From: Nitrospira sp.
Lineage (GTDB): Bacteria; Nitrospirota; Nitrospiria; Nitrospirales; Nitrospiraceae
NCBI GenBank assembly: GCA_030692565.1
Contig: JAUYAO010000057.1
Coordinates: 124,001 to 188,000, forward strand
Length of the DNA stretch: 64,000 nt
Direction of reading: 5' to 3'
The notes below the pieces were generated by a model, which was given only the letters and a program-made list of their open reading frames with translations, made no database searches and was not told where the DNA came from. Numbering within the stretch: the stretch's first letter is position 1; every line of letters starts with the position of its first letter. The translations under genes and the position numbers were made by a program. Below, piece after piece: positions 11,633-42,087 of this stretch.

Positions 11633-11790
11633 CAGGCTGTTGACAATGTCCGCCAACGGCGTTCTCATCATCCGTGAAGCGTTCCTCGTGAAGCGTATCT
11701 CGCGAACGTGCCCTCGCCGATCCTATAACGAGAGACGAACGACGCTTCACGAACAACGGACAAAGCGGACGGCCTTTCTGAACAGCCTGC
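11633..11790 (+). repeat. Full-length dispersed element, copy A (MITE/REP-like)
   Basis: About 158 bases starting CAGGCTGTTGACAATG directly after the TAA of the lipoprotein gene and ending AACAGCCTGC, so the ends are inverted (CAGGCTGTT/AACAGCCTG). The whole length is a reverse-complement copy of the element at 16360-16532, with shared inner blocks (CGCCAACGGCGTTCTCATCA, GTGAAGCGTTCCTCGTGAAG, AACGAGAGACGAACGACGC). The inner part is self-complementary and would fold into a long hairpin. Confidence 0.75.
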
Positions 11791-11954
11791 GGGCCATACG
11801 GATCCTATCCGTGATCTTAGCCCAGACTTCCTCACCGGAGCCGTTATCGAGATTATCAACAGCCTGCTAATAACCTGCTCGGATCGACGTATCCGGAACC
11901 CACGTCCTGAACGGGCCGGGAGGAGCGCTTTACGCTCCTCCCGATAGTGAACAG

Positions 11955-12038
11955 CTTCACTTTTCTGCTCGCTTCACGTTTCACGCCTCACGTTTCACGG
12001 TGCACTGAACGCCGCTGGCGGACTTTTTCAGCATCCTG
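11955..12038 (-). repeat. Partial dispersed element, copy C
   Basis: Contains several TTCACG units and then the element end GAACGCCGCTGGCGGACTTT...AGCATCCTG, which abuts the TAG of the PEP-CTERM gene at 12039. It corresponds to one half of copies A and B. Confidence 0.65.
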
Positions 12039-12689
12039 CTAGGCCGCCAGCTCACGGCGCTTCTTCCAGGCCAGGCCTCCGACGCCCATCGCCCCGCTGG
12101 CAAACAACAGAAACGCGGCAGGAACCGGCACGGGCGCCGGGGTCAGGCCGACGGCCTTGCCCTGCAAGAAGAACGTGGCGGTCCGGTCCTGTCCTCCCTT
12201 GCGCGACCAGTCCTGCTCACCCTTGAACGCGCCGCGCTCAAAGAGATGATTCCAGGACAGGCTGAATTCCGAGGTCTCCGGGTTGAACAATCCCTTGGCA
12301 AGACCGCCGATATTCCAGGCGCGCACCTCGCTCCCGCGGCTCCAGCCGAAGAACAACGAGGAGAGATCGACGCTCAGCGACGACCCGTTGATCGTGGCGG
12401 AGGGCGCCGGAGCGCCGGTCATCCCGCTGGTGAAGAGTGAGTAGGTGGTGCATTGCTTCGTGATCGGATCCACGATCTCCGTCATCGACTGAAACGATCC
12501 CATCTTGATGACCCCGTCACGGTCGAACAACCGGTCGAGCGTGCGGCCATGTTCGCCGCTCCAATTCACCGCGCCCGAGGTGAATTCCAATTGGCCGATC
12601 GAGACCGCGTGGGCGCGGCCCTCCAGCCCCACGAGCGACAGCGCCGCCGTTGCTACCACCGCCACCGTCAATGCGAGTACACCTTTCAT
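12039..12689 (-). CDS. VPxPA/PEP-CTERM sorted exported protein
   Basis: A 216-residue exported protein. It has a signal peptide (MKGVLALTVAVVATAALSL, cleavage near AHA-VS) and a C-terminal exosortase sorting tail: PVPVPAA, a hydrophobic helix FLLFASGAMGVGGLAW and a basic end KKRRELAA. Exosortases cut at the VPxP motif and hand the protein on to the envelope or extracellular matrix. The ATG at 12689 is preceded by AAAGGAG. The middle of the protein is not recognised. The TAG lies directly against a dispersed repeat. It is the last of three such genes in the window, near an exopolysaccharide locus, which is the usual setting for PEP-CTERM proteins. Confidence 0.82.
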   Translation of the reverse strand: MKGVLALTVAVVATAALSLVGLEGRAHAVSIGQLEFTSGAVNWSGEHGRTLDRLFDRDGVIKMGSFQSMTEIVDPITKQCTTYSLFTSGMTGAPAPSATINGSSLSVDLSSLFFGWSRGSEVRAWNIGGLAKGLFNPETSEFSLSWNHLFERGAFKGEQDWSRKGGQDRTATFFLQGKAVGLTPAPVPVPAAFLLFASGAMGVGGLAWKKRRELAA

Positions 12690-12957
12690 CGCGAACTCCT
12701 TTGGTTGTGAGACGAACTCTATGAGTTCGCCCCGGTGTGAATGTGAAGATGAACCGATGCGCTTCGATGAATCCGTTCTACGTTGCATTTCGTAACAAGC
12801 CGCTGTGAGGAGCATCCCGGCAAACCCATTCTGGGAGCCATGGATAACATCCGTGTAAACTTTCGATCCTGGTTCGATTAATTTTGGATCAAGATTTAGG
12901 GGGCGAGCGAAGAGCCCCACCCTTATGAGGGAGCATGACTGATTGTCAACAAGCTCG

Positions 12958-12975
12958 CTGAGCAATTATGCTCAG
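12958..12975. other. Small perfect hairpin
   Basis: CTGAGCA and TGCTCAG are separated by ATTA. It is about 270 bases upstream of the PEP-CTERM start and could be an operator or part of a leader. Function unknown. Confidence 0.3.
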
Positions 12976-13163
12976 TGGGGACGGCTATCACTGCCGTCGT
13001 CCACCCAGCCGTCCGGTCAATATCAAGCACGAAGCGTTCCAACGAACCTTCCCACTGATCGCCTTCGCACCAATGACCGCGTCCCTCACGAGAGAGGCCG
13101 CGCGCAGGAACAGTCTACCGCTCAGGCTTACTGTATCGCGAGAGGAGAGGCAGAGGGTCGAGA

Positions 13164-13214
13164 GGCAGAAAAAGACACCGGCCCCCGCCACAGGATCACT
13201 GCGACGGGGGCCGG
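13164..13214 (-). terminator. Intrinsic terminator of the PEP-CTERM gene at 13244
   Basis: On the minus strand CCGGCCCCCG (rc of 13205-13214) and CGGGGGCCGG (rc of 13178-13187) form a perfect 10-bp GC stem with a 17-base loop, followed by TGTCTTTTTCTG. It begins about 30 bases after the TAG of the gene. Confidence 0.8.
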
Positions 13215-13243
13215 GACAAGCGGGCCGATCGTGGCCCAGGAGA

Positions 13244-13885
13244 CTAGAGGACTGACTGGGTCTTGCGGAATCCCAGAAGTCCCATCAGGCCGCTGCCGAA
13301 GAGCAGCAGCGCGCCAGGAAGCGGCACCGCCGCAAGCTGGGCAGACCCTTGGAGGGAAAACGTGCCGGACTGCAAGAACGGAATGTTGTATCCCGTAAAG
13401 GACTTGGTCCAGGACACGTTGAAGGCGTTCGTCAGTTCATTGAACGACCCGGCGGCGTTGCCGCCGACATTCAACGACGCCATCTGTGGATTCGTGTTAA
13501 CCCAAGACCAGCCGGTGCTGGTCACCCCGGCGAAGAGTGACTGGAGATCCGCCGTCATGACCGCCCCGGTCGTCTGTGCGGTCGGAGCGGGAAGATTGAG
13601 CGCTCCACCGTTGCTCGTGAAAAGGGAGAACGTGAGGTGGGAGAGTGTGATCGGAGTGAAGATGTTCGGCAGAGGCTGGTACTGCCCCATGACCAACTGC
13701 CCGTTCTGCGTGAAGGTGCCGGACACCGACCCCAACGAGCCGAAGTTCAGATTGACCGATCCGCCGGTGATGTCGAGCTGCGTCACCGACGCTGCCTGCG
13801 CGGGAACCGGCGCAACCGACAGCACCATCACAGCCAGGAGCGCGAATGCTCCTCCCCATGACATGAATCGTTGAAGGTGTCTCAT
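13244..13885 (-). CDS. VPxPA/PEP-CTERM sorted exported protein
   Basis: A 213-residue exported protein with signal peptide (MRHLQRFMSWGGAFALLAVM, cleavage near AQA-AS) and sorting tail VPLPGALLLFGSGLMGLLGF ending in RKTQSVL. The mature part is rich in Gly, Ser, Thr and Asn, as is common for matrix-associated PEP-CTERM proteins. I choose the ATG at 13885 because GGAAGG lies about nine bases upstream; an in-frame ATG at 13894 lies too close to that site. An intrinsic terminator follows the gene. Its mature sequence resembles the neighbour at 12039 in layout (TQLDITGGSVNLNFG against IGQLEFTSGAVNWSG). Confidence 0.82.
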   Translation of the reverse strand: MRHLQRFMSWGGAFALLAVMVLSVAPVPAQAASVTQLDITGGSVNLNFGSLGSVSGTFTQNGQLVMGQYQPLPNIFTPITLSHLTFSLFTSNGGALNLPAPTAQTTGAVMTADLQSLFAGVTSTGWSWVNTNPQMASLNVGGNAAGSFNELTNAFNVSWTKSFTGYNIPFLQSGTFSLQGSAQLAAVPLPGALLLFGSGLMGLLGFRKTQSVL

Positions 13886-13961
13886 CACTGCCATCCTTCC
13901 CAGGTGGCTGCCGGGAGTCTCGCTCCCGAACAGCCACACTGCGCGAGTATGAAGGGCTCGA

Positions 13962-15233
13962 TTACCGGCACTCGGGGTGAGCGCCTGCCTTCCAAATGAG
14001 CGGACCCTTGTCCACGTTCTTGGTCACGAACATTTCCTCATCGGACGCCCAGTAGGCGCCGGTGGGAATGATGCCGATGGTGGCTTGCGCCGAGGCATTA
14101 TCGACATAGGCTTGAGCCAACGCGTCGATGGCCGCGCCTTCGGAGGTCGTCCGGCGATTCAGGCGCCAGCCGGCCCAATAGGCATACTTGCCGCAACGGA
14201 GGTCGCGCTTTTCGTTGCCGACTAAAGCCGGATCATGGGCTAACCCGCCATCAAGACGGACGGTATAGCCCAATCCGGCGTTGGCGCCGCCCGGATTGAA
14301 GCTCACCACCGTATCTGAGTCCATATAGCCGATGGAACGGCGATTGCTTGCCAGACAGGTCAACACACCCGACGAACTCGAGCTGAATACCGACGTGGCA
14401 TTGGCCAAGAGGGTTTCGGTCGAATTGATCATGACGGCTTCATCGAATGTCGCCTTCGTGCCTGAGCCGGCACTGCGCATGCAGAGGGTGATCGGCGAGG
14501 TCGCTTCTAACACACCGGGAGCCGCATCGGTCACCGTGCCGAATCCCAGTTGCCTCCAGTCCGTGACTTGCTTCGAGAAAATTCGCTCGATCTCCAGACG
14601 GGACAGTCCGGCGATCGGTCCGCCCGGAGCGCCTGCCACATCCTTCACTACTCCCTTACCCACATAAATCGAGAATGGCACGATGGCCGCCACCACGCTA
14701 TTGAGGCTGCTGTCGTCCAGCGGGCTCACCGTCGTCCCCAATGGGCCGGCCTGGTGAAATGACGCGCCCTGCACATCGGAGGCGCCCAGATGAACCGGGA
14801 GGCTGATCGTATTGCCGTTGTTGCAACCGGTTGTATTGTTGTACTGCTTGCCGTCCGACGGTCTGGCTGCCACGTTCGGACCCGTGCAGCCGGTCGTCAG
14901 AGTATGGTCGAGGAACAGCATGTTGGAGGCCGGATTGGCAGCCGGCTGAAGCAGCTTGTTGACGCCGTCGCTGGACCCGGTCGCCGAATAGCGCATGATC
15001 ACGGGCAGGCCCCCGCGGTTGCAGGTCCAGGTGACCTTGTTGTTGTCCGCGCTCGAAAACCGGCTGGGAAGCGGCGCGGCGTCGCACAAATTCAACGGCA
15101 CGTCTGTCGCAAAGTTACGCCCGGCGGACGAGCCGCCGACATTGAGGACGGTCTGGGCCTCGGCGGTTCCGGCCAGGCCGGCCAGCGCCAGCGCGCCGGC
15201 GAGAACTGACACATATTGTGTCGTAAACTTCAT
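13962..15233 (-). CDS. PstS-like periplasmic binding protein
   Basis: A 423-residue exported protein with signal peptide (MKFTTQYVSVLAGALALAGL, cleavage near AEA-QT). It has type II periplasmic-binding features of the phosphate-binding PstS kind: the N-terminal strand VLNVGGSSAGRNF, an inner RYSATGSSDGVNKLL loop, the LSRLEIERIFSKQVTDWRQL helix, and RSAGSGTKATFDEAV, the anion-binding S-G-x-K segment. A GAAGGAG precedes the ATG. No pstCAB genes are nearby, so it may be a matrix or stand-alone binding protein rather than an ABC-transporter part. It lies between two PEP-CTERM genes in the same direction but has no sorting tail of its own. The ligand may be phosphate; this is inference. Confidence 0.75.
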   Translation of the reverse strand: MKFTTQYVSVLAGALALAGLAGTAEAQTVLNVGGSSAGRNFATDVPLNLCDAAPLPSRFSSADNNKVTWTCNRGGLPVIMRYSATGSSDGVNKLLQPAANPASNMLFLDHTLTTGCTGPNVAARPSDGKQYNNTTGCNNGNTISLPVHLGASDVQGASFHQAGPLGTTVSPLDDSSLNSVVAAIVPFSIYVGKGVVKDVAGAPGGPIAGLSRLEIERIFSKQVTDWRQLGFGTVTDAAPGVLEATSPITLCMRSAGSGTKATFDEAVMINSTETLLANATSVFSSSSSGVLTCLASNRRSIGYMDSDTVVSFNPGGANAGLGYTVRLDGGLAHDPALVGNEKRDLRCGKYAYWAGWRLNRRTTSEGAAIDALAQAYVDNASAQATIGIIPTGAYWASDEEMFVTKNVDKGPLIWKAGAHPECR

Positions 15234-15284
15234 GGGTGATCTCCTTCAAATAAAATAATGTACCTGTTGGTTTCGATCCGTACC

Positions 15285-16016
15285 CTATGCGGCCATCTGG
15301 GCAAACTTGCGCCGGGCGATTCCGACGAGCCCGATCAAGCCGCTGCCGAACAACACCACGCCGGCAGGAAGGGGAATGGGAGCCACGTTCGGACCGGGAT
15401 TGCCGATCGTCAACAATCCGCCAGCGGTCAACAAGACCCGGCCTACCTGGGTGAACGCGTTGGTTTCCACATCGCCACGCATAATATTGAGAACATTATC
15501 GAGGTTGCCCTGCATCGCCCGCTCCCAGGCTCCTTCAAACTGACCCGATCCGGAGGTATTGAGATTCTGCGAGAAGGACCGGTTCAAGGAATCGGACTTG
15601 CTGATCGTATCTCCGTCGAAGAGCGGCAGTGATGACCACACCGCCGACGCGATGAACTGTGTTACGAAATCCTTCGTCCCGGTCAGCTGCGCCGGAGTAA
15701 AAGCCGTGGCCGCATGGATCTGTCCGTTTGTCAGACTGGTATCCCAGCCGAACACGGTGTACTTCACCGGGTTCCCGCCGACTTGCGCCGCGGCCAATCC
15801 CGCGGAGGCATCAAAGTCGAACGTTGCGCCGGAGCCCAGTCTGGTGTTGTAATTTCCCAGATTATAGAGCGCCTCGGTGCTGTTCCCGTAGATCGCCAGC
15901 ACCAGGTCGCCGTCACCGAAGGTGAACGCCTGCGCCTGTCCGGCCATGCCGGACACCGCCGTGGCTACGGCTAACGCCGCCGCCATCATCATCCGCTTGA
16001 TCCCTTGAACTTTCAT
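15285..16016 (-). CDS. VPxPA/PEP-CTERM sorted exported protein
   Basis: A 243-residue exported protein. The signal peptide is MKVQGIKRMMMAAALAVATA with cleavage near AQA-FT, and the C-terminus is PIPLPAGVVLFGSGLIGLVG followed by IARRKFAQMAA, a good exosortase sorting tail. The start at 16016 has AAGGAGG upstream. The mature part begins FTFGDGDLVLAIYGNSTEAL, a segment I have no function for. The start of the PstS-like gene is 51 bases further on, so the two may be co-transcribed. Repeated 7-4-7 sites lie 150-200 bases upstream (16162-16223). Confidence 0.82.
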   Translation of the reverse strand: MKVQGIKRMMMAAALAVATAVSGMAGQAQAFTFGDGDLVLAIYGNSTEALYNLGNYNTRLGSGATFDFDASAGLAAAQVGGNPVKYTVFGWDTSLTNGQIHAATAFTPAQLTGTKDFVTQFIASAVWSSLPLFDGDTISKSDSLNRSFSQNLNTSGSGQFEGAWERAMQGNLDNVLNIMRGDVETNAFTQVGRVLLTAGGLLTIGNPGPNVAPIPLPAGVVLFGSGLIGLVGIARRKFAQMAA

Positions 16017-16161
16017 ACGACCCCTCCTTGATTGTAAAAATGACCTGTACTGCTGCCCTGCCTTCGATTCCTGAACTGTCCTCGCTCCCATCACCCCCTC
16101 TCTTTCCGAGAAGGGCGCGCAAATCTTTTGATAGATTCACACTGCCGTTCTCTCGTATCCG

Positions 16162-16223
16162 TGTTACAGCCACGTCACCCTCCCATTTGAGGGTCGTTAA
16201 CAGTGCGTTGCCGCAGTGTTGCG
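16162..16223. promoter_or_regulatory. Cluster of 7-4-7 direct repeats (PhoB/OmpR-like)
   Basis: TGTTACA-GCCA-CGTCACC (16162-16179) and, after a short gap, CGTTAAC-AGTG-CGTTGCC-GCAG-TGTTGCG (16195-16223) all keep 11-bp phasing. They lie upstream of the minus-strand PEP-CTERM gene and the PstS-like gene. A phosphate-type (PhoB) regulator would fit the PstS-like product but is not shown. Confidence 0.4.
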
Positions 16224-16359
16224 GATCGGGCGAAGCCCGGCGGGCCACTCGCTGCACGTGAGGAGTTGTACGCGGGAGAAGTTACCGCGCGATCAACGGA
16301 GCTTGTGGGAAGGGTAAATTGTAGATAAAGAACGGGAAACAAACGGCCGATGAACTACT

Positions 16360-16532
16360 GCAGGATGCTCCAGCAAGGCGGTCTGCTTCGTCCGTCGTTC
16401 GTGAAGCGTCGTTCGTCTCTCGTAGTAGGATCGGCGCAGGCACGCTCGCGAGATACGCTTCACGAGGAACGCTTCACGAGGAACGCTTCACGGATGATGA
16501 GAACGCCGCTGGCGGGCTGTTTCAGCATCCTG
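16360..16532 (-). repeat. Full-length dispersed element, copy B (MITE/REP-like)
   Basis: Begins GCAGGATGCTCC and ends AGCATCCTGC, so the ends are inverted. It is the reverse-complement counterpart of copy A at 11633-11790 along its whole length, with one extra GAGGAACGCTTCAC unit. The minus-strand end CAGGATGCTGAAACAGCC directly follows the tonB TAG. Inner TTCACG units would pair with each other in a long hairpin. Confidence 0.75.
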
Positions 16533-17171
16533 CTATGTCGGCGGGAAGAATTTTACGACGATCGTATGATCCATCCCCGGCGGAGGCGGACGCACCTCCG
16601 TCACTTTGGCCAGCGCATCGAGCGCGGATTGATCGAAGAGGAGACTGCCGGACGAGTTGACGAGGCGGAACTGCAACACACGACCCTGTTCATCGATCAC
16701 CAACTCGCAGAGCACGGCATATTCCAGATCGTCCGGGAGCGACGCCGGGGCCTGATACTTCGACTGAATCGACGCGGTCAAGATATCCGTGTAGCCGGCG
16801 AATCGTCCCCGGCCTTTCCCAATGGCAAACGGATCGGTGCTCACCGGCGGCGGCCCCGGCGCATCGGACGCCTTGGGTGGCGGCGGCGCTTCTGCCTGCT
16901 GAGGGGGAGGTGGAGGCGGCGCCTCTTGCGGCTTCGGCTCCGGCTTGGGCGCCTCCGGTTCCGGTTCTGGTTCCGGTTCCTTTTCAGGCGGAGGGGGCGG
17001 CTCCTCTTTCTTGAAGGCATTCAGCTTGTAGACCTTGATGAGGTCCTGCCCCCATTGGGTTTGCGCCACCCAATAGAGTCCGCCGCCGATGCCGACATGC
17101 ACCAGCCCGACGATCAACAGCGTCGTGCCGAGCTTGCTCTTCTTTTTTTCAAATCCCTTATAGCCGGCCAT
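16533..17171 (-). CDS. tonB: TonB energy transducer
   Basis: A 212-residue TonB. The short cytoplasmic start MAGYKGFEKKKSKLG leads into one membrane helix (about 16-37), then a long Pro/Glu/Lys periplasmic spacer (about 53-110) and a C-terminal TonB domain (about 125-212) with YAVLCELVIDEQGRVLQFRL and SALDALAKV. TonB carries proton-motive energy from ExbB/ExbD to outer-membrane receptors. The His typical of the E. coli transmembrane helix is present (VGLVHVGIG). It is in the same direction as exbB and exbD but separated from exbD by a 178-base repeat block. Its TAG abuts a dispersed element. Confidence 0.92.
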   Translation of the reverse strand: MAGYKGFEKKKSKLGTTLLIVGLVHVGIGGGLYWVAQTQWGQDLIKVYKLNAFKKEEPPPPPEKEPEPEPEPEAPKPEPKPQEAPPPPPPQQAEAPPPPKASDAPGPPPVSTDPFAIGKGRGRFAGYTDILTASIQSKYQAPASLPDDLEYAVLCELVIDEQGRVLQFRLVNSSGSLLFDQSALDALAKVTEVRPPPPGMDHTIVVKFFPPT

Positions 17172-17349
17172 CTCTTCAACTCGTGAAACGTGAAACGTCG
17201 TGCGTGAAGCGCAAGGGGGAAGGCGTCCAACTCGTGAACGGTGAAGCGTGAAACGTGAAGCGTCCCTCGTGAAGCGTCCGAATCCGCAATGAGATACGCT
17301 TCACGTCTTCTTCTGGCGCTTCACGCTTCACGAGGGACGCTTCACGGTC
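17172..17349. repeat. TTCACG inverted-repeat block between exbD and tonB
   Basis: The gap is filled with GTGAA(A/G)CGT units on the left and their complement (ACG(C/T)TTCACG) on the right. A perfect 23-base inverted repeat (17255-17277 with 17323-17345) would give a stable hairpin with a 45-base loop in the mRNA. The motif GTCTTCTTCTGGCG in this block recurs in the next block upstream. Confidence 0.8.
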
Positions 17350-17766
17350 TTAAGGTTCATTGAATGGTTTTGTGGCAATCGCCAGATCCTCGACCGGAAT
17401 CCGCTGGAGGATGTCGAGCACCGCGACCACGTGCTTGTATTCCACGCCGGAATCGCCGCGGAGTACGAGCGGCAACTTGCCGCCCTTGGCCGCTTTCAGA
17501 TCGCGAATCAACTTTTCCAGTTCCGTAATCTTGACCTTCTCTTCGTCCATGTAAATATCGCCGTTCTTCTTCACGGAGAGGGTCGGCGTCGTGGTTTCCA
17601 TTTCCGTTTCGTGCGGAGTGGACTCCGGCAACTTGAGCTCGATCCCCTGCACCGCCGCTGTCGTCGTGATGATGAAAATCACGAGCAGCACCCAGGCCAG
17701 GTCGAGCAACGGGGTCATGTTGATATCGGCGACCGCGCCGTGCGATTTGCGGGAAAAACGTCTCAT
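17350..17766 (-). CDS. exbD: ExbD/TolR-family biopolymer transport protein
   Basis: A 138-residue ExbD with the family layout: short basic N-terminus, SHGAVADINMTPLLDLAWV with the conserved membrane Asp (D22, equal to the proton-path Asp of ExbD), one membrane helix, and a periplasmic domain with LKLPES, VKKNGDIYMDEEKV and LRGDSGVEYKHVVAVLD. It forms the proton channel with ExbB and energises TonB. Repeat blocks flank it on both sides. The start is the ATG at 17766. Confidence 0.93.
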   Translation of the reverse strand: MRRFSRKSHGAVADINMTPLLDLAWVLLVIFIITTTAAVQGIELKLPESTPHETEMETTTPTLSVKKNGDIYMDEEKVKITELEKLIRDLKAAKGGKLPLVLRGDSGVEYKHVVAVLDILQRIPVEDLAIATKPFNEP

Positions 17767-19358: not shown

Positions 19359-19376
19359 CTGCGTCGTCCTTTCCGG

Positions 19377-23681: not shown

Positions 23682-23697
23682 GTACAGCCTCACAATC

Positions 23698-26741: not shown

Positions 26742-26807
26742 ACCACTCCCTCTCCGACTGCCTCTTCTTTTCTGCTCCCGCACTCATGCACGTCGCCGCA
26801 AGGGCAA

Positions 26808-27722: not shown

Positions 27723-27831
27723 TTCAAACGTTCTCCCGCTTCGTTGTTCAGGCACTCCTCTTCGCGGGCGATATTTCCGTCATAATCGGCTATCATTCCA
27801 TCGTTCGTTGCAGTTTAGGATGAGGGATCTC

Positions 27832-30192: not shown

Positions 30193-33100
30193 GTGACGGT
30201 ACGCAGCAAGATCAGTCTCGGAAATTTGCTCCATTCGAGAGCCAGCTTTCCCGAAAACGACTTAGCCGAACAGTACGCTGGGGGCGAGCCTCCGCTGCGC
30301 TCGGAGCTCTTCAGCGCCGACCAGATGGAGCAGCACGGCAAAACCCTGGCAGGCCTCCACCAGTTGAGCCAGGGCCAGGCTCCGGACCGGCTCCTAAGCC
30401 GGCTGGCTGAGAATGAAAGCGTCCTGATCGGAGTTCGCGATCTGTTGGCCGAAGCGGTGAAGGCGACCCGCCGGATTACGCCGGCCGGAGAATGGCTGCT
30501 CGATAACTTCTATCTCATTGAAGAGCAGATTCGGCTGGCCAAGCGGCACTTGCCCAAAGGATACAGCCGCGAACTTCCCTACTTGCTGAATGGCTCATCG
30601 GCCGGGCTTCCGCGCGTCTATGACATCGCGCTGGAAACGATCTCGCACGGTGACGGACGCGTCGATCCGGGGAGCCTCAGCAGCTTCGTCGCGGCGTACC
30701 AGACGATGACCGGCCTGACATTAGGCGAATTGTGGGCGATCCCGATCATGCTTCGCTTGGCCTTGATCGAGAATCTCCGGCGCGCGGCGACGCGTATGGC
30801 CGCGCATAGGATCGACCGCAATCGCGCGGACTTCTGGGCGGATCAGATGATGGAGATCGCGGAGAAGGATCCGAAGAGTCTCATTCTGGTGATCGCCGAC
30901 ATGGCCCGGTCCAGCCCACCGATGGCGAGCGCCTTTGTGGCGGAGTTCGCCCGCCGGCTGCAGGGACAAAGCCCGGCGCTGGCATGGCCGCTCACCTGGA
31001 TTGAACAGCGGCTCTCCGAATCCGGCCTGACGATTGAGCAGTCGGTGCAATCGGAAAACCAACAGCAAGCCGTCGACCAGGTCTCCATCAGCAACAGCAT
31101 CGGCAGTCTCCGATTCCTGGGAGCGATGGATTGGCGCACGTTTGTTGAGACGATGAGCGTCGTCGAACAGACCTTGCGCGAGGATCCTGCCTCAGCTTAC
31201 GGCACGATGGATTTTGCCACCCGCGATCGCTATCGCCACGCGGTGGAGCATATGGCCAAGAGCAGCCGGCTCTCGGAAAGCGACATTGCGCGTCAGGCCA
31301 TCCAGCTGGCGCAGCAGAGCGCGACGGAAATCGGGAGCGACCGTCGAGAAACCCATGTCGGCTTCTATCTGATCGGCAGAGGAGCGCCGCAGCTTGAACG
31401 ATTGGTCGGCGTGCGACTATCCAAAGCCGAGGCGTTACAGCGGGCGATCGGCCGGTGCCCGTCGCTCCTCTATGTCGGCACGATCGGCTTATTGTCTCTA
31501 TTCTTCACCGCCGGCTTATTGTTACAGGCCTATGCCGGGGGCGTAGACGGTTGGTTGCTCGCCCTGGTCGGACTCCTCTCACTCCTCTGTACGAGCCAGC
31601 TGGCGGTCACAGTGGTCAACTGGCTGGCAACCGTGCTGGTCACGCCGCATGCGCTCCCGCGCCTGGACTTCTCCAAAGGCATCCCCCCGGATTCGCGCAC
31701 GCTGGTCGTGGTTCCGACGATGCTCAGCAGCGTTGAACATATCGAGCATCTCATCGAGGCGCTCGAAGTCCGATTCCTGGCCAATCGGGACAGCCATCTG
31801 CACTTTTCCCTGTTGACCGACTTCCGGGACGCGCAAGAAGAAACAGTGCCGGAAGACGCGCCCCTGTTGCGGCTGGCCCGGGAGCGGATCGAGGAACTCA
31901 ATGACAAATACAAGGAGACGACTCAGGAGGCCTTCTTCCTCTTCCATCGGCCGCGCCGATGGAATCCCGGGGAGCGGGTGTGGATGGGCTATGAGCGGAA
32001 GCGAGGAAAACTTGCCGACCTCAACCAGCTCTTACGGGGTAATCCGGCAGATCGTTTCTCGCTGGTTGTCGGGGACACGGCGATCTTAACAACCGTCAAG
32101 TACGTAATCACGCTGGACACCGATACGCAATTGCCGCGCGATGCCGCACGCCAGTTTGTGGGCACCATGGCCCACCCACTGAACCGCCCACGGTACGATG
32201 ACGACAAAGGTCGGGTCTGCGACGGATACGGCATTCTGCAGCCACGCGTCGCCGTCAGCCTGCCGGGGACGAACCGGTCGCGCTATGCGCGGCTCAACGG
32301 GAGCGACCCCGGAATCGATCCCTATACCCGCGCCATCTCCGATGTGTACCAGGACCTGTTCGGTGAAGGTTCGTTCATCGGCAAGGGCATCTATGAGGTG
32401 GAGGCATTCGAACGTTCCCTGACCGGACGCTTTCCCGAGAATACAATCCTCAGCCATGATCTGCTCGAAGGGTGCTACGCGCGCGCGGGACTCTTGAGCG
32501 ATGTGCACTTGTACGAAGAATATCCCTCCTGCTACAGCTTGGATGTGAGCCGGCGGTATCGCTGGATCCGCGGGGACTGGCAGCTCGCAGGATGGCTGCT
32601 GCCGCGCGTTCCAGGCCCTGGCGCAACCCGCCTCAAGAATCCGCTCTCCGGACTCTCCCGATGGAAGCTCTTCGACAACCTTCGACGAAGCCTCGTGCCT
32701 TCCGCATTGACCCTCCTCTTGCTGCTGGGCTGGACCGTACTATCCCCGATCTGGCTCTGGACCCTCTCGGTGATCGGAATCATCCTGGTCCCTCCATTGC
32801 TGGCCACGATCCTCAACCTGCTTCAGAAGCCGGAAGACGTGTTACCGGAGCAGCATGCCGCGGTCGCAATCCGTGCGGCCGGCCAGCACATGATTCAGAC
32901 GGTCTTGACGGTCACGTTCCTTCCCTACGAGGCGTTCTACAGTGTGGATGCGATTGTGCGCACGATCTGGAGGATGGGGGTCACGCATACCCGACGGCTC
33001 GAATGGAATCCATCGAGCAATCAAGACCTCGATCGGCGTACAGACCTCGTCGCCTACAGCCGGATGATGTGGATCGCGCCCGTTCTTGCCGGGGCTTCGG

Positions 33101-36100
33101 CGATGTATCTGTCGCTGGAGGAAACCGCTTCGTTGGATGCGGCGGTCCCCATTCTGGGGCTCTGGCTTGCCTCCCCCGTTGTCGCGTGGTGGATCAGCCA
33201 GCCGATCACTCGGCCCGAAGTGCATCTGACGACCGACCAGACCATCTTTCTCCGGAAGCTGGCCCGAAAAACCTGGGCGTTCTTCGAGCAATTCGTCGGA
33301 GCGGACGATCATTGGCTGCCGCCGGATAATTTTCAGGAGCACCCGGTCGCCGTCATCGCCCATCGCACGTCGCCGACCAACATGGGGCTCGCGCTGCTCG
33401 CCAACTTGTCCGCCTACGACTTCGGCTATATCTCGGCAGGCCGGCTCATCGAACGCACGACGAACGCGCTGCGCACGATGGGAGGCTTGGAGCGACACCG
33501 CAACCACTTCTACAACTGGTACGACACCCAGACGCTGAAGCCCCTGCTGCCGACCTACGTGTCGACCGTGGATAGCGGAAACCTTGCCGGCCACCTGCTG
33601 ACATTGCGGCCGGGCCTGCTCGCGCTCCCCGACCAGAAGATCCTGGCACCGCGATTCCTTGACGGACTCAGCGACACCCTCGGCGCTCTCAAGGATTCTG
33701 CCGGGGAACCGGCGCAAGCCCTCCTGGCCAAATTCCAGAAACATCTGGAGGCGGCCGATGAATCCAAACCAACCACGCTCACGGCGGCCCGGCTCTGCCT
33801 TGACCGGCTGACCACCACCGCAGAAGAGATACTGGCATCCTTGAAGGGTACTCCTGAAAACCACGCTACCTGGTGGGCGCACGCGCTCAACCGGCAATGC
33901 CGGGACGCCCTCGACGACCTCATGTTTCTCGCCCCCTGGGCCCTGTTGTCGGCTTCACAGAGTCGGCTCAGCGAATGTGGCGATATCGATGTGATCCCGA
34001 CGTTGCGTGAACTGGCGCGGCTTGACCTCTCCTGCCTGCACGCCATCGAACATCGCATGGGTCCGGAGGCGATGCCTGAGGAGCGCACCTGGATCAGCAA
34101 CCTTCAAGGGCTCATCGTGAAGGCCAGCCAGCGCGCCAGAGAGAGAATCGCGGCGCTCGAAGAGCTAGCCCGTCAGGCCAGTCACTTCGCCGCCATAGAG
34201 TATGAGTTCCTGTTCGACAAGACCTGTCATCTACTGGCGATCGGCTACAACGTCGGCGATCGCCGACGGGACACGAGTTACTACGACCTGCTGGCCTCGG
34301 AGGCCAGACTATGCAACTTCGTCGCGATTGCACAGGGGCAACTGCCGCAAGAAAGCTGGTTTGCGCTCGGGCGGCTCCTTACGACCGCCGGTGGGGGACC
34401 GGTCCTCATCTCATGGAGCGGATCGATGTTCGAATACCTCATGCCGCTGTTGGTCATGCCGACGTACGACAACACCCTGCTCGACCAGACCTGCAAGGCA
34501 GCCGTGGAGCGGCAGATCGCCTATGGAAAACAGCGCGGCGTCCCGTGGGGCATTTCAGAATCCGGCTACAACACGATCGACGTGCATCTGAACTATCAAT
34601 ATCGGGCCTTCGGCGTACCCGGGCTGGGATTGAAACGCGGGCTGGCCGACGATCTGGTGATTGCGCCCTATGCCACGGCGCTCGCGCTGATGGTGGCGCC
34701 TGAGGAAGCTTGTCTGAATCTGCAACGACTCGCCGAAGAAGGAGCCGAGGGACAGTTCGGTTTCTATGAAGCGATCGACTACACGCCTTCCCGTCTCCCG
34801 CGCGGCCAATCAAGCGCGATGATTCGGTCCTACATGGCCCATCACCAGGGCATGAGTTTGCTCGCCCTGGCCTATCTGCTCCTCGACCGCCCCATGCAAA
34901 AGCGATTCGATTCAGATCCGTTGTTCCAGGCAACGACGCTGCTGCTCCAGGAGCGGATTCCGAAGGCGACGGCATTTTATTCGCATACCGCCGAGCTCTC
35001 CGACATACGGACGACCTCGGGGGACACAGAAGTACCGGTGCGCCGATTCACCAGCCCGCACAGCGCGATTCCCGAGGTGCATTTATTATCGAACGGTCGA
35101 TACCACGTGATGATCACGAACGCGGGGGGTGGATACAGTCGCTGGAAGGATCTCGCCGTCACCCGCTGGCGCGAAGACAGTACCCGCGACAATTGGGGCA
35201 CCTTCTGTTACCTCCGCGATATAGAAAGCGGGGCATTCTGGTCCACGGCCTATCAGCCGACACTGCAATCACCGACCAGCTATGAGGTCATCTTTTCAGA
35301 GGGACGGGCTGAGTTTCGCCGGCGGGATCAGGATATCGAAACCTACACAGAGATTGTGGTGTCGCCGGAAGATGATATCGAACTGCGTCGGACCCGCATC
35401 ACCAATGACTCGCAGAGCCGCCGCACGATCGAGATCACCAGTTACGCGGAAGTCGTCCTCGCATCGTCTGCCTCGGACACGCTGCATCCCGCATTCAGCA
35501 ACCTCTTCGTGCAAACCGAAATCATTCACGAACGGCAAGCGATTCTCTGTACGCGCCGGCCTCGCTCCCTCGACGAGCACACGCCATGGATGTGCCACCT
35601 CATGGCCGTGCATGGAGCAGCCACCGAAGCCATGTCGTACGAGACGGACCGCCTACAATTCATCGGCCGCGGTCGCACCGCCGCCGATCCACAGGCGCTC
35701 CGTGGCTCCGGCGGACAACCGGAGCGGCATCCGCATGCGGCGCTTTCCGGGAGTGCAGGCTCCGTGCTTGATCCGATCGTCGCCATCCGTTGTCAGGTCA
35801 CCCTCGATCCGGAAGAATCAGTCATCATTGATCTGATGTCCGGCATCGGCGACAGCCGCGAAGTCTGCCTGGGCCTGGTCGAGAAATATCACGATCGCCG
35901 CCTCGCCGATCGTGTGTTCGACATGGCCTGGACTCATAGCCAGGTCGTCATGCGGCAGCTGAACGCCACGGAAGCCGATGCGCAACTCTATGGCCGACTG
36001 GCGAACTCGATTTTGTATGCGAATGCCTCCCTGCGGGCCGACCCGAGTGATCTGATCAAAAACCGCCGCGGGCAATCGGGACTCTGGGGCTACGCGATCT

Positions 36101-38946
36101 CCGGCGATCTCCCGATCGTGTTGCTCCAGATCGGAGACCCGGCCAATATCGATCTGGTCCGTCAACTCGTACAGGCCCATGCCTACTGGCGCTCCAAGGG
36201 GCTGGCCGTCGATCTGGTGATCTGGAACGAAGATCATGCCGGCTATCGCCAGCTGCTCCACGAACAAATCATGGGGCTGATTGCCGCGGGCGTCGAAGCC
36301 CATGTGATCGATCGACCGGGCGGCATCTTCGTCCGTCCTGCGGAGCAGATTTCGAACGAAGACCGCATCCTGCTCCAGTCCGTCGCGCGCGCGATCATTA
36401 GCGACCGACGAGGATCGCTGGAAGACCAGATGACCCGTCGCGGCCAAACGGACAGTGCCGTCCCTCGGCTGACGCCCATCCGAACCCGCCGGCCTGAACC
36501 CGAACCATCCGCTGCGATGCCGCGCCACGATCTCATGTTCTTCAACGGGCTGGGAGGATTTACCTCCGATGGGCGCGAGTATGTCATCACCACCACGCAT
36601 GGGCAGGTGACACCGGCACCGTGGGTGAACGTCCTGGCCAATCCCACCTTTGGCACCGTCGTCTCGGAGAGCGGCCAGGCCTATACCTGGAGCGAAAACG
36701 CGCACGAGTTCCGCCTCACCCCGTGGCACAACGACCCGGTGAGCGACACGAGTGGAGAGGCCTTCTATATCCGCGACGAAGAGAGAGGCCACTTCTGGTC
36801 CCCCACGCCGCTTCCCAGCCGCGGATCGACCGCGTACGTCAGCCGGCACGGCTTCGGCTATAGCGTCTTCGAACATACGGAACGCGGCATCCGGTCGGAA
36901 CTGTGGGTGTACGTGGCGCTGGATGCGTCGATCAAGTTCATGGTGCTCAAGGTGCGGAACGAATCAGGCCGCGCGCGCAAACTATCTGCGACAGGGTACG
37001 TGGAATGGGTACTGGGAGATCTGCGTCCGAAATCGACGATGCACGTCGTCACCGAATTGGACCCAACGAGCGGGGCCGTCTTCGCGAGAAATTCCTACAA
37101 CACGGAGTTCGGCGGACGGGTGGCCTTCTTTGATGTCGACGAGACGGCTCGATCCATCAGTGGCGACCGGACCGAGTTTATCGGGCGAAACGGCACGCTT
37201 CGCAATCCGGCCGCGATGACCCGGTTACGGCTGTCCGGGAAAGTCGGGGCCGGACTCGATCCCTGCACAGCCATCCACGTTCCCTTCGAGTTAGCCAGCG
37301 GACAAGAGCGTGAGATCATCTTCCGACTCGGCATCGGGCGAACCGCCGATGAAGCCAAAAAGTCCGTACAGCGATTCCGGGGACCGGCCGCCGCCCGCGC
37401 TGCGCTCACGGCGGTGCAGCAATACTGGACGCACACGCTGAACGCCGTACAGGTGGACACACCGGACCACTCACTCAATCTGCTGACCAATGGCTGGCTC
37501 TTATACCAGACGCTCGCCTGCCGGCTGTGGGCGCGGAGCGGATACTATCAATCCGGAGGGGCCTTTGGGTTCCGCGATCAACTCCAAGACACCATGGCGC
37601 TCATCCACACCGAACCGCACCTCGCGCGCGAGCACCTCCTCCTCTGCGCGGCCAGACAGTTTCAGGAAGGAGATGTACAGCACTGGTGGCACCCTCCCTC
37701 AGGCCGGGGCGTGCGTACCCGCTGTTCGGACGATTATCTCTGGTTACCGCTGGCCACATGCCGCTACGTGCTCAGCACCGGTGACACCGGGGTCTTGGAC
37801 CAAACATCCATCCACTTCGTCGAAGGCCGCCCCTTGAACCAGGAGGAAGACTCGTACTTCGATCTACCGGTCCGGTCTGAACAATCGGCCAGTTTGTACG
37901 AACACTGCGTGCGAGCGATCCGAAAAGGTCTCACGCGCGGCACGCATGGCCTCCCGCTCATCGGTTCCGGTGACTGGAACGACGGGATGGACATGGTCGG
38001 CAAGCACGGCACGGGCGAGAGCATCTGGTTGGGGTTTTTCCAATATGCCGTGCTCACGCAGTTCGCCACGCTTGCCCACCTGCGCGGAGACTTCCCGTTC
38101 GCCGAACGTTGCCGGCAGGAAGCTGCCGACCTGCGTCAGAATATCGAGCGGCATGGCTGGGATGGCGCGTGGTATTTGCGCGCCTACTTTGATGATGGTT
38201 CGCCGTTGGGGTCTGCAACCAATCCCGAATGCCAAATCGATTCGGTTGCGCAAAGCTGGTCGGTGCTCTCCGGGGCCGGAGACACCCTACGCTCGCGCAT
38301 CGCGATGGACGCCGTGGACCGACGCCTCGTGCGCCGGGATGCTGCGCTGATCCAACTGTTGGATCCACCGTTCGACACGTCACCCTTGAACCCCGGCTAC
38401 ATCAAAGGATACGTGCCGGGGGTACGAGAAAATGGCGGCCAATATACGCATGCGGCCATCTGGGCGGCGATGGCGTTCGCCGCATTGGGAGAGCAGCAAC
38501 GCGCATGGGAACTGTTGACGATGATCAACCCGATCAATCATTCGAGATCTCCGGAGGAGACTGCGACCTACAAGGTCGAACCGTACGTCGTCGCGGCCGA
38601 CGTCTATGCAGTCTCGCCGCATACCGGCCGCGGTGGATGGACCTGGTACACCGGCTCAGCCGGCTGGCTGTACCGGCTCATCGTCGAATCACTCCTCGGA
38701 CTGAAGCTGGAAGTCGATAAACTACGCGTCACTCCGTGCATCCCTGCCGACTGGAAAGGATTCACGCTGCACTACCGATACCGGGAGACCATGTACCATA
38801 TTACGGTCTTACAAATCGGTGCCGGAAACGGCAAAACCAGTGTGACGGTGGACGGTGTCGAGCAACACGATCCGACCATTCCTCTTACGGACGACCGACA
38901 AGAGCACTCGGTTGAAGTAAGAATTCGACCGGCTGTCAGTGAATAG
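30193..38946 (+). CDS. Cyclic beta-1,2-glucan synthase-like protein (GT84 + glucoamylase + GH94)
   Basis: A 2,917-residue inner-membrane enzyme, close in size and layout to rhizobial NdvB/Brucella Cgs. It has a helical N-terminus, a pair of membrane segments (about 425-490), a GT84-like transferase region with [11 protein letters not shown] (D641, D643) and [14 protein letters not shown] (about 786-799), further membrane segments near 840-880 and 955-1000, then the glucoamylase-like domain (about 1250-1580, [20 protein letters not shown]). Two GH94 carbohydrate-binding domains follow and a C-terminal GH94 domain with [13 protein letters not shown] (D2597 is the expected catalytic Asp). Known relatives make periplasmic osmoregulated cyclic glucans. 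The GTG at 30193 is the start used. Confidence 0.9.
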
Positions 38947-39014
38947 GGGAACCCACGACACACCGCATCTTCTCGCCGTCACTATGGTCGAAAAGGAGAC
39001 CGCGGCTGCGACGG

Positions 39015-39821
39015 TTATCGTGCGACAGGAAGTCCGCTGAAATAGTACGAAGAGATGGCGGCGGTTGTGGCGACGTTGAGGGAGTCGATCCCTCCGGCCA
39101 AAGGAATGGAATATCTGTGCGGCGATGCGGCGATGGAGGCAGGGAGCAAGCCCTGGCTCTCATTCCCTACTGCAATGATGGATCGAGATGCGCGCGCTGT
39201 AATACTTCTGAGATCACAGGCCTCAGGCGACAATACGACGGCGACATAGAGTACGCACCCTGAGGCTATCAGCGAAGACAGCTCGGCTCCTTGAAACACC
39301 GGAAGTGCGAGAATCGCTCCGGCTGTGCCCCGCACCACCTTCGGATGAAAACAGTCGACCGAGTCAGGACTGAGCCAGACACCTGACAGACCAAGCCCCG
39401 CGGCGGTTCGGATGATCGTGCCGACATTCGTTGGATCTTGTAGGTGTTCGCCATACACACCCAAGACTCGCTTCTGAGCCAACACTTCGCCTTCATTCCA
39501 TTTCGGCAATCGGACAACCGCGAGAATTCCCTGCGGCACGTCTACATCAGAGAGCTTCTCAAAGGTCTCCTCCGGACAGGAATATTGCGTAGCCCGCAAT
39601 GCGTTCCGAGCAGCGCGGCTCTCCTGGTCTTCCAGCTCAAGGTATCGGGTTGAAACCGTGAGGCTGACGATCTGTGCCGAAAAAGAATGAATGAGATCGC
39701 GACAGGCGTGAGCCCCTTCGATGACGAAGGCGCCTTCACTGAGACGTGACTTCTTGTCCTGGAGGAGATGCCGAACTAACGATCCCTGGGCACGAGTAAG
39801 AGGGCGGAGCAGAGCAGACAC
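39015..39821 (-). CDS. SpoU-family (TrmH/RlmB-type) RNA methyltransferase
   Basis: A 268-residue SPOUT 2'-O-ribose methyltransferase. The N-terminal substrate-binding region holds FVIEGAHACRDLI. The catalytic domain has motif 1 LQDPTNVGTIIRTA (127-140, with the conserved Asn and Arg), motif 2 GNESQGL (219-225) and motif 3 IPLAGGIDSLNV (239-250), which form the trefoil knot and SAM site. It methylates rRNA or tRNA; which nucleotide cannot be told. It converges with the glucan-synthase gene, leaving 68 bases in between. Confidence 0.92.
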   Translation of the reverse strand: MSALLRPLTRAQGSLVRHLLQDKKSRLSEGAFVIEGAHACRDLIHSFSAQIVSLTVSTRYLELEDQESRAARNALRATQYSCPEETFEKLSDVDVPQGILAVVRLPKWNEGEVLAQKRVLGVYGEHLQDPTNVGTIIRTAAGLGLSGVWLSPDSVDCFHPKVVRGTAGAILALPVFQGAELSSLIASGCVLYVAVVLSPEACDLRSITARASRSIIAVGNESQGLLPASIAASPHRYSIPLAGGIDSLNVATTAAISSYYFSGLPVAR

Positions 39822-39875
39822 GTTCGACCCTCTTACCCTACTGAGCCAGGCCCGTAGAGAAACCCTGACAGAGAA

Positions 39876-40217
39876 CTACCGCCGCTTCCGCTCGGACGCG
39901 GCTTCTGCGGCACGAATCCGCTGAGCCCTCGCCTTGGCGCGCTTGAGGAGCGTGAGCTTCCCGCGCGTGCGATCCTGCTCAGTCTGTAGCTTCTCGAGCT
40001 GTGACTTCAGGTGGGCTTTCTCTTGTTTATGTAAATCCGCGCATTCGGCTTTCGAGAGCAGCTTCCAATCGCCTGTATTGCCTGCCCGCTTTATCCGAGC
40101 ATCCAGCGATTCGCGAAGCTGGCGCGCCCGCATCGTCATGAGTGATTTCAGGGCCTGCTGGCGCCGCTGCACTTCTTCTTCTTCGGCCATAATGCCACGA
40201 ATGTCCGTTCCCAACAT
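39876..40217 (-). CDS. Small basic coiled-coil protein
   Basis: A 113-residue, highly charged, all-helical protein with heptad-like runs such as EEEVQRRQQALKSLMTMRAR and HLKSQLEKLQTEQDRTRGKL and a basic C-terminus ASERKRR. There is no signal peptide or membrane segment, so it is cytoplasmic. The ATG at 40217 has GGAGGG upstream. I do not recognise the family. It lies 54 bases upstream of the SpoU gene in the same direction, so they may share a transcript; a link with RNA binding is possible but not shown. Confidence 0.7.
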   Translation of the reverse strand: MLGTDIRGIMAEEEEVQRRQQALKSLMTMRARQLRESLDARIKRAGNTGDWKLLSKAECADLHKQEKAHLKSQLEKLQTEQDRTRGKLTLLKRAKARAQRIRAAEAASERKRR

Positions 40218-40297
40218 GTTCCCGCCCTCCTTCAAAGACCTAAGTTCGAACGGGCATATTGTACCTGAATTCACCTCTCACCTGCCACCAGGTAAAA

Positions 40298-40313
40298 AAT
40301 GACATAAGTCATT
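40298..40313. promoter_or_regulatory. Inverted repeat in the divergent promoter region
   Basis: AATGAC-ATAA-GTCATT is a 6-4-6 inverted repeat between the coiled-coil gene and the XRE regulator gene. Such a short palindrome upstream of an XRE gene may be its own operator. Confidence 0.4.
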
Positions 40314-40388
40314 GATGTGTATGCACTTTGTCAAATTCACATCATGGGGTCGCTTGCGGCAGAATCCGGACTTCTATATCATCCGCAC

Positions 40389-40850
40389 ATGCCAATCGGT
40401 GCACTCATACAGGCCTGGAGGCTCTCTCGAAACCAATCGATTGAAGCACTCTCAAAGACCGCCGGCATCTCGACGGCTCAGCTAGAAGACATTGAGGCCG
40501 ATCAGGCCGATCCTTCTGCAGCAACCATTGAGTTACTCGCAACCGCCCTTCGCATCCCACCCGCATGGCTATTCGATACACCCAAATCGTTCGATTGCCT
40601 GTTCAATGAGTCCGGCGACGACGAGCCACCGCCGCCCGAACGCACAGACCCCGTCACCGAACGTATTCTGACCGGCTCTCGCTTGGATCGATCGCTGTAT
40701 GTCATGCTGACGGCGCTGATGCAGGCAGGCGACCCCAAACTGCTCCGTGCAGCGGAAATGAGCCTTCGCAGTCTCGTCAAACAATCACGCCAGGCCTCTG
40801 TTCCCTGGCAACAACGGCCCCCGGGTCATTTCGAGCCGCCCAGCGGCTAG
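40389..40850 (+). CDS. XRE-family DNA-binding regulator
   Basis: A 153-residue protein. The N-terminal Cro/C1 helix-turn-helix is clear: IGALIQAWRLSRNQSIEALS, KTAGISTAQLEDIEADQADP and ATIELLATALRIPPAWLF. The C-terminal part has a Pro-rich linker (DDEPPPPERTDP) and an alpha-helical region without a known ligand domain. I use the ATG at 40389, where the HTH fold begins; it has no strong ribosome site, and an ATG at 40344 is possible. A palindrome lies about 80 bases upstream. Targets are unknown. Confidence 0.8.
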   Translation: MPIGALIQAWRLSRNQSIEALSKTAGISTAQLEDIEADQADPSAATIELLATALRIPPAWLFDTPKSFDCLFNESGDDEPPPPERTDPVTERILTGSRLDRSLYVMLTALMQAGDPKLLRAAEMSLRSLVKQSRQASVPWQQRPPGHFEPPSG

Positions 40851-40879
40851 TTGCCGACATCGGCTGATATCTCTTACCC

Positions 40880-40893
40880 GGATCAACAGCCTG
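40880..40893 (-). repeat. Dispersed element end next to the rlmI stop codon
   Basis: On the minus strand, the rlmI TAG (40894-40896) is followed directly by CAGGCTGTTGATCC, the same end as in copies A-C. Only this end is present; the rest of the element is missing or diverged. Confidence 0.6.
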
Positions 40894-42087
40894 CTAGAAG
40901 ATTTGCAGGATAAGGCATTTGAGATAGCGCGTCTCGGGCATGCTCGCCAGAATCGGATGATCGCCGCTCTGTCCCCGCTGCTCGATCAATCGGACTTCAC
41001 GCTTGGCATCACGCGCAGCCAGACGTATGGCATCCCAAAACTGCAATTCAGAGATATGGTGAGAACAGGAACTCGTCACCAGAAAACCTTCCGGCTTCGT
41101 AAGTCTGATTCCAAGCAGATTGATATCTTTGTATCCGGTGAGTGCTTTCGGCACGGCCTGCTGACTCCTGGCGAACGCCGGAGGGTCAAGCATGACCATA
41201 TCGTAGCGCTTCCCGGTTTTGACCAAGGATCGAAGTTCGTCGAAGGCATCCCCGGCGCGATACCGGCAGCGTGACTCGACATTATTCCGACGCGCATGCT
41301 CCCGCGCAATCACCAGCGAGTCTTCGCTGATATCCAACCCCTCAACCGATGTGGCGCCGGCCAGCGCCGCATGAATCCCGAATGCACCCGTATGGCAAAA
41401 CGCCTCCAGCACTTCAGCGCCGTTGGCATACCGTGCCGCCGCCAACCGATTCTCGCGTTGATCGCAAAACCACCCGGTCTTCTGTCCGGACTCCATATCC
41501 ACACGAAAGATGGCCTGCCCTTCGGTAATCTCGACGGTCGTCGCGCCGTTTCCTTTCGCAAAGCCCCGCTCCAGCGGCAATCCCTCAAGCGTCCGGCTTT
41601 TCGGATCATTCCGGAGATAAATCGTCTTCAGGCCGGTCACCTCTGCAAGCAGCTCGGCCAGCATCGCTTTTCGACGGTCCATCCCGAACGCCAGCGTCTG
41701 CATGACGAGCGCCTGATCGTAGCGATCCACAATCAATCCCGGCAGACGGTCGCCTTCGCCGTGGATGAGCCGGTACGCCGTCGAATTCGTCACGATCCGC
41801 TGTCGCAACCGCACCGCCTGACGCATCCGCTCAAGCCAGAACGGCTCATCGATCGGAATGTCTTCAAACGTGAGAAAACGAACCCGAATCTTGGACTCCG
41901 GGTTGTACAACCCTCGGCCGTAGAATCGTCCGGCAGGCGTGACCACATCGACCACATCACCGGCAACCGGCTGGCCTTCGATCTGCGCCACATGGCCGGC
42001 ATAGAGCCAGAGATGGCCGGGCCCTTCTCGGCCCATCTGATGGAGTAACGTCACACGCGCAGTGGAGGCTTCCGTTTGTATTATCAT
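40894..42087 (-). CDS. rlmI: 23S rRNA m5C methyltransferase RlmI-like
   Basis: A 397-residue SAM-dependent rRNA methyltransferase. The N-terminal PUA domain (about 1-80) has GHLWLYAGHV and GRGLYNPESKIRVR; next are the family-typical RLIHGEGDRLPGLIVDRYDQ and FRVDMESGQKTGWFCDQREN. The Rossmann domain has VLEAFCHTGAFGIHAALAGA (SAM motif I) and MVMLDPPAFARS (catalytic motif), then VTSSCSHH with the Cys used for C5 methylation. In E. coli this enzyme modifies C1962 of 23S rRNA. Its TAG abuts a dispersed element end. Confidence 0.9.
   Translation of the reverse strand: MIIQTEASTARVTLLHQMGREGPGHLWLYAGHVAQIEGQPVAGDVVDVVTPAGRFYGRGLYNPESKIRVRFLTFEDIPIDEPFWLERMRQAVRLRQRIVTNSTAYRLIHGEGDRLPGLIVDRYDQALVMQTLAFGMDRRKAMLAELLAEVTGLKTIYLRNDPKSRTLEGLPLERGFAKGNGATTVEITEGQAIFRVDMESGQKTGWFCDQRENRLAAARYANGAEVLEAFCHTGAFGIHAALAGATSVEGLDISEDSLVIAREHARRNNVESRCRYRAGDAFDELRSLVKTGKRYDMVMLDPPAFARSQQAVPKALTGYKDINLLGIRLTKPEGFLVTSSCSHHISELQFWDAIRLAARDAKREVRLIEQRGQSGDHPILASMPETRYLKCLILQIF

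Follow-up and report, generated by a model that had tools for sequence, protein, structure and literature searches.

A family of hairpin elements with YTAR target duplications often lies directly behind stop codons in the order of Nitrospira

Several described systems come close to the element reported here, and we summarize them as they are presented in the available parts of the cited sources. The insertion sequence (IS) IS5 duplicates a pyrimidine-T-A-purine target, mostly CTAG (PMC5493358). IS1272 and TnSha1, both of the IS1182 family, insert in hairpins, several of which are terminators (PMC5678879, PMC4923244), and RUP is thought to be mobilized by IS630-Spn1 (PMC2229807). Repetitive extragenic palindromes (REPs) measure 20-40 bp (PMC3733652), and those located within 15 nt of a stop codon are said to stall ribosomes (PMC12306157). 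Here we analyze a stretch of 64,000 nucleotides from Nitrospira sp. (assembly GCA_030692565.1, contig JAUYAO010000057.1, positions 124,001 to 188,000), hereafter the window, in which a long-hairpin element abuts the stop codons of genes. We consider it likely that the element is a miniature inverted-repeat transposable element (MITE) mobilized in trans by a DDE transposase of the IS5/IS1182 kind, and that the duplication of its target, YTAR (Y, pyrimidine; R, purine), rebuilds the stop codon. A literature search at the level of titles and abstracts, with subscription journals mostly outside it and one survey only partly covered, did not find the element described.

The motif, the element and its spread

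The original prediction, made from the window sequence, placed a short motif in register directly after the stops of four genes, namely those called Fn3-like lipoprotein, PEP-CTERM, tonB and rlmI. All five 14-mers reported were found to be exact, and with up to two mismatches allowed the window contains 7 matches compared with a shuffle mean of 1.28. TARCAGGMTGYTGA has 23 exact copies in the 4.17-Mb draft genome and its reversed-pattern control 0; CAGGMTGYTGA (M, A or C), which omits the TAR triplet, has 62 copies versus 8 for the reversed control. Genes were called using a codon-usage score trained on 36 open reading frames (ORFs) of the window, by which small genes are missed. With these calls, the TAR of TARCAGGMTGYTGA is the in-frame stop of a coding-like ORF in 15 of the 23 genome copies, as against 40 of 546 TAR+C triplets in sample stretches, where 43 of 527 YTAR sites pass the same test. 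This is the genome-wide check proposed with the original prediction, and it shows enrichment at stops. All four named window genes pass the test with their stops in register with the motif. The eight TARs that fail include the window triplet at 11867-11869 and the one at an IS copy in this genome, C13. A common Gln-rich extension by read-through had also been proposed and was rejected: past the TAR, the reading frame stays open for 10 to 218 codons at the 23 sites, and no frame is conserved, because element lengths differ by a few nucleotides among copies.

Alignment of ten copies defined a 124-bp element, CAGGATGCTGAAAAAGTCCGCCAGCGGCGTTCTCGC...CTCAACGTACC...GGTACGCC...CTGCGGCCTTGCTGGACGGCCTTTTTGAGCATCCTG. 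Full copies begin with CAGG(A/C)TG(C/T)TGAAAA, and canonical copies often extend about 75 nt past the hairpin to ...CAGCCTG, for a full length of about 200 bp. The ends form terminal inverted repeats (TIRs): each of the nine outermost hairpin positions is base-paired in 85-95% of 265 copies, and position 10 is conserved as unpaired (paired in only 26 of 265). Folded as a single strand, one copy reaches -65.1 kcal/mol (z -6.15). A covariance model built on the ten canonical copies returned 98 rows from this genome, or 82 after 16 opposite-strand duplicates were removed, and matched 36 of the 39 genomes searched in the order, with 0 to 77 rows per genome; these copy counts are lower bounds, given that 90-150 first-look candidates were scored per genome (90 each in the 39-genome survey). 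Across the species collection the core pattern occurs in at least 120 stretches, and among the 80 matches listed, 78 carry Nitrospira- or Nitrospirota-type names and two the name 'Nitrosospira' isolate NOB2. Copies that are 96-98% identical sit at unrelated flanks, mostly in different genomes. We conclude that the dispersed element next to the stops of unrelated genes is a real MITE family that is widespread in the order, and that it adjoins TAG and TAA stops so exactly because its target is YTAR.

Target duplication, residence at stops and the copies in the window

In 18 long copies, the four flanking positions agree across the element in 16, 15, 16 and 17 cases (83-94%). With either the hairpin end or the long end allowed, 20 copies are bounded by perfect YTAR direct repeats (CTAG, CTAA, TTAG or TTAA), among them the window copy at 11633-11866. 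TA on both sides of a few copies first pointed to a TA target of the IS630/RUP-like kind, a model given up in favor of YTAR when the true right end became known. Canonical copies away from stops carry YTAR on the left too, so it is the target in general: the four nucleotides before the left end are YTAR in 35 of 65 canonical copies at stops and in 36 of 70 others, a split based on 400-nt flanks in which the 'not at stop' set includes some copies at stops.

Of these 20 perfect-duplication copies, 16 reside at a coding stop (left end 11, right end 8, both 3, neither 4). As a null, 716 kb of sample sequence contains 1100 non-coding YTAR sites, of which 179 (16%) are at stops; since small genes are missed, intergenic YTAR sites are probably overcounted and this value is probably too low. 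More generally, 43 of 82 copies of this genome and 94 of 182 copies of other genomes have their left end -4 to +2 nt from a coding stop, and in 24 and 70 copies, respectively, it is exactly at the stop (distance 0). The right hairpin end falls within the same range in 5 and 7 copies, and right-end distances cluster at about -70 to -82, as expected of long reversed copies. The stops beside copies are TAG in 85, TAA in 38 and TGA in 14 cases (n=137); genes of the sample stretches end in TAG (44), TGA (36) and TAA (28), and those of a larger sample in TAG (61), TGA (58) and TAA (42). We read the figures for the 20 perfect-duplication copies as residence at stops in clear excess of the YTAR frequency, even with retention bias and missed genes. 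The proposal that the element targets stop codons holds in part: what is duplicated is YTAR, a sequence that may include TAG or TAA, and stops exceed what YTAR would lead one to expect.

Orthologous loci were used to follow gene ends with and without the element (30 eno loci from 33 matched genomes and 30 PhzF loci from 53). The names eno, glmS, gatB and PhzF are putative assignments. At eno, the element is present in 2 of 30 loci (genomes G000 and G046; by eye). The close relatives G041 and G042 have no element and a TAA stop at the same place, with no hairpin seen after the stop by eye, and one further genome, G012, has a TIR-like right end. At PhzF, nine of 30 loci carry the element, with eight TAG stops and one TAA (by eye), and 20 of 30 are without it, with 14 TGA, five TAA and one TAG; the protein ends alike in both groups (by eye). 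In a syntenic region of three species, elements follow different subsets of the same genes. From these comparisons we conclude that the element is not the source of the stop and that it came and went after gene ends were fixed. The TAR is part of the duplicated target, and the alternative original proposal, in which the element's terminal TAG provides the stop, is ruled out by element-free orthologues that keep the same protein end. About 10 kb of G022 contains seven copies on the same strand, which raised the possibility of a gene cassette or integron array. This was dismissed: the genes seem ordinary, and G000 and G041 have them in synteny with different element sets.

Additional structures were seen at these gene ends. 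At one PhzF locus (L378, G060) there is an apparent deletion footprint, and the gene stops at a TGA from the element's right arm. At two others (L374 in G046, L379 in G022), one element type is followed by a right-arm remnant of another (by eye), as if a hairpin had inserted in a hairpin and replaced its left part. In several PhzF genes the stop TGA lies within a palindrome, TGAAACGGC...GCCGTTTCA. Long hairpins of another family, which seems unrelated to the element and has the interior CTCGCGnAACGCG...GTGCTCGTTnAACGCGCGCA, also stand at the 3' ends of genes, after gatB-like genes (L369, L372) and after PhzF (L387, L392, L393, L397, L400, L401).

Within the window (Table 1), the covariance model at E 0.001 recovered only 11633-11789 (39.7 bits) and neither the tonB nor the PEP-CTERM copy, and Rfam gave 0 matches over the gathering score. 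What had been described as a fifth copy, at the TAG at 11867-11869, is the opposite-strand right terminal repeat of the full-length element. The tonB gene matches TIGR01352 above its cut-off, and the rlmI gene matched its families below theirs. At rlmI, only the 11-mer is present after the stop, with no hairpin behind it in the window; it may be an old remnant or a chance match. Orthologous rlmI flanks read TAG-TAGACTGTTGA in G041 and TAG-CTGGCTGTTGA in G042. In the rlmI series (L160-L186; 27 loci from 29 genomes with a match), the stops are 18 TAG, 8 TAA and 1 TGA (by eye), and none of the loci has a covariance-model match at E 1e-6. A simple terminator scan of 10500-17300 (GC-rich hairpin, loop 3-8, T-run), which would miss long or branched hairpins, called none of the three copies; its total was 5 versus 5.5 in shuffles. 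By eye, both window copies have a nested palindrome-like sequence, CCGTGAAGCG...CGCTTCACG, in place of the usual apical part (about 11660-11770 and 16380-16500). The window also contains a 2917-aa ORF at 30193-38946.

Table 1. Element copies, target duplications and adjoining gene in the window (positions of the window).
Feature	Position	Strand	Remarks
Gene originally called Fn3-like lipoprotein	10604..11632	+	Coding score 66-67; stop TAA 11630-11632 within target CTAA
Left copy of the 4-bp duplication CTAA	11629..11632	+	Includes the stop
Full-length element	11633..11866	+	Hairpin 11633-11789 plus 77-nt right domain ending CAACAGCCTG; model match C57:135633-135789
Right copy of the duplication CTAA	11867..11870	+	Reverse complement gives the originally reported TAG 11867-11869
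Truncated copy, left 32 nt only	12007..12038	-	Directly after TAG 12039-12041 of the so-called PEP-CTERM gene; by eye
Copy with both arms and a different apical part	16361..16532	-	Directly after tonB stop TAG 16533-16535; by eye
11-mer CAGGCTGTTGA	40883..40893	-	After rlmI stop TAG 40894-40896; no element downstream

Candidate transposase, stem evolution and alternative explanations

Three IS copies have ends matching those of the element and CTAG duplications. C13 has the ends CAGGCTGTTGACAA/TTGTCAACACCCTG between CTAG repeats. Eight transposase loci were scanned, and three of them, from three genomes, have the inverted repeat CAGGCTGTTGAnAA with CTAG on both sides; the five remaining loci showed no such ends. 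The other two transposases are 92% and 44% identical to that of C13. One of the three IS copies is at a coding stop, and two of the three have an in-frame stop in the transposase. The C13 transposase matches DUF772 and DDE_Tnp_1. Its best family match is IS1182 (NF033551, 214 versus a 270-bit cut-off, E 3e-63), and it also scores against IS5_4 (NF033581, 130 versus a 140-bit cut-off), both below cut-off and both taken from one 362-aa reading frame that starts behind an in-frame TAG (by eye). Under the explanation that we favor, a DDE transposase of the IS5/IS1182 kind would move the copies of about 200 bp in trans, insertion would duplicate the 4-bp target, for which Y-TAG and Y-TAA stops qualify, and the duplication would rebuild the stop so that the protein stays unchanged. 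We infer that a C13-type IS lineage moved the MITEs. The excess at stops would result from selection against other sites combined with a target preference for gene ends and their hairpins or terminators, by analogy with IS1272, and a retained hairpin might later take on a 3'-end role in the mRNA or in the DNA.

A number of observations weigh against this explanation. At E 1e-30, 8 of the 39 genomes have a C13-type transposase, and 36 of the same 39 have the element, so that this transposase cannot be the present mover everywhere; G022, for instance, yields 60 model rows but no C13-type transposase at that threshold. A right duplication is not recognizable in most copies, and in 135 hairpins bounded by CAGG...CCTG the identity per position across the hairpin is 19-40%. 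The 14 of 137 stop-adjacent copies that follow TGA do not fit YTAR. Over all 264 copies, the stop is at the left end in 137 and at the right in 12, which a near-palindromic target would not predict, with the qualification that the right end was measured at the hairpin, that long reversed copies have the stop about 75 nt away and that the perfect-duplication copies divide 11 versus 8. In addition, that set admits only perfect duplications that match YTAR, a choice that favors copies at stops. A YTAR target alone leaves unaccounted the excess at stops, the left-end bias, the TGA minority and the maintained stem.

The stem was examined in three sets of copies. In alignment A3 (130 rows, a few of them from the opposite strand), which was fitted to the model and leans to it, 89.9% of cells pair, double changes occur in 29 of 36 model pairs, and covariation is 0.216 versus 0.088 when shuffled and 0.02-0.03 with slid partners. 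A separate MAFFT/RNAalifold alignment of 60 diverse copies has double changes in 25 of 35 predicted pairs. Part of these double changes can be differences between MITE subfamilies. The PhzF copies of six genomes show double changes at 5 of 25 arm positions and an invariant G-G mismatch at position 10; apart from the G-G, five other or overlapping arm positions are unpaired in at least one copy. Provided that the PhzF copies share one insertion, this pattern suggests that the structure was maintained after insertion, and the compensatory changes in the stem suggest a retained 3'-end function.

Such changes, together with the fold of the single copy and the left-end bias, would also fit a structured element of the 3' untranslated region (a terminator, mRNA stabilizer or protein-binding hairpin) that is selected after stops and whose position is set by its function, its dispersal being secondary. 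We regard this as possible rather than probable, given that the copies at stops with perfect YTAR duplications must have inserted there directly, that none of the three window copies was called as a terminator and that presence at any given gene is sporadic; moreover, 5 of 25 PhzF arm positions are unpaired in some copies, and these copies may have several insertion origins. It is rather doubtful that the element singles out true stops beyond their YTAR share and becomes a functional, structure-conserved 3'-end module replaceable over evolution by other elements at the same gene end, which, if true, would make it a mobile supply of gene-end modules, with an RNA or DNA hairpin starting at the first base after the stop and the protein untouched. 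Stem-loop replacement, in which the element would take the place of hairpins or terminators behind genes and inherit their position, draws on the resemblance of the candidate transposase to IS1182, on the hairpin-in-hairpin remnants at PhzF in G046 and G022 (by eye) and on the hairpin targets of IS1272 and TnSha1, several of them confirmed terminators in the parts of PMC5678879 and PMC4923244 available. We find it unlikely: IS1272 inserts without duplication, whereas 20 copies and three IS have perfect 4-bp duplications, and the empty eno sites of G041 and G042 lack a hairpin (by eye).

A single-strand hairpin of the attC kind or of the kind formed by REPs and REP-associated tyrosine transposases (RAYTs), whose target specificity would be one-sided and whose mover would be an HUH or integron-type enzyme, would account for the one-sided left flank and the conserved unpaired position 10, and the genome does contain five Y1 transposase genes. 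This is a very improbable origin in view of the direct 4-bp duplications. Four of the five Y1 loci were read, and none has a recognizable element, although two have a partial end match within about 2 kb; on these grounds the REP/RAYT system was rejected. The ends of attC are RYYYAAC...GTTRRRY, and by eye the element ends do not fit these core motifs, no integrase search having been made. Two Y1 (RAYT-like) genes, at L055 and L056, are flanked by GGGGACA palindromes of their own that seem unrelated to the element (by eye). Finally, chance or a shared codon context after stops could be invoked from the frequency of TAR followed by C at rlmI stops, where the match itself may be chance, but we give it practically no weight against 23 copies with none in the reversed control, most other motif matches continuing into a homologous hairpin.

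Comparison with described systems

If a DDE transposase moves this MITE family as proposed, it would illustrate low-cost transposon insertion through a target whose duplication rebuilds a stop codon. Because many members of this nitrifying order have dozens of copies in each genome, and because the stems show compensatory changes, it becomes testable whether selfish hairpins turn into working 3' ends of genes.

The element resembles the short foldable families RUP, Correia/NEMIS and ERIC in having terminal inverted repeats and duplications. It differs from them in its YTAR target, where these families have TA termini according to the available part of PMC2229807, in its position exactly at stops and in the compensatory evolution of its stem. 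Similar to REPs, it is palindromic and close behind stops, but it is about 124-200 bp long with duplications, and no link to a RAYT was seen at the Y1 loci read. The IS1182 family provides the best match of the candidate partner, and its members target gene-end hairpins in the sources cited above, to which the hairpin-into-hairpin remnant at PhzF can be compared; targeting of hairpins or terminators as in IS1272 and TnSha1 could plausibly account for the surplus of copies at gene ends. Unlike this family, the element has 4-bp duplications, and the partner stays below the IS1182 cut-off. With the IS5 group the element shares the direct 4-bp YTAR duplication with CTAG prominent, as described in the part of PMC5493358 consulted, and the candidate partner shares DUF772 and DDE_Tnp_1; the partner is below the IS5_4 cut-off, and the element, in contrast to IS5, is non-coding, much shorter and concentrated at stop codons.

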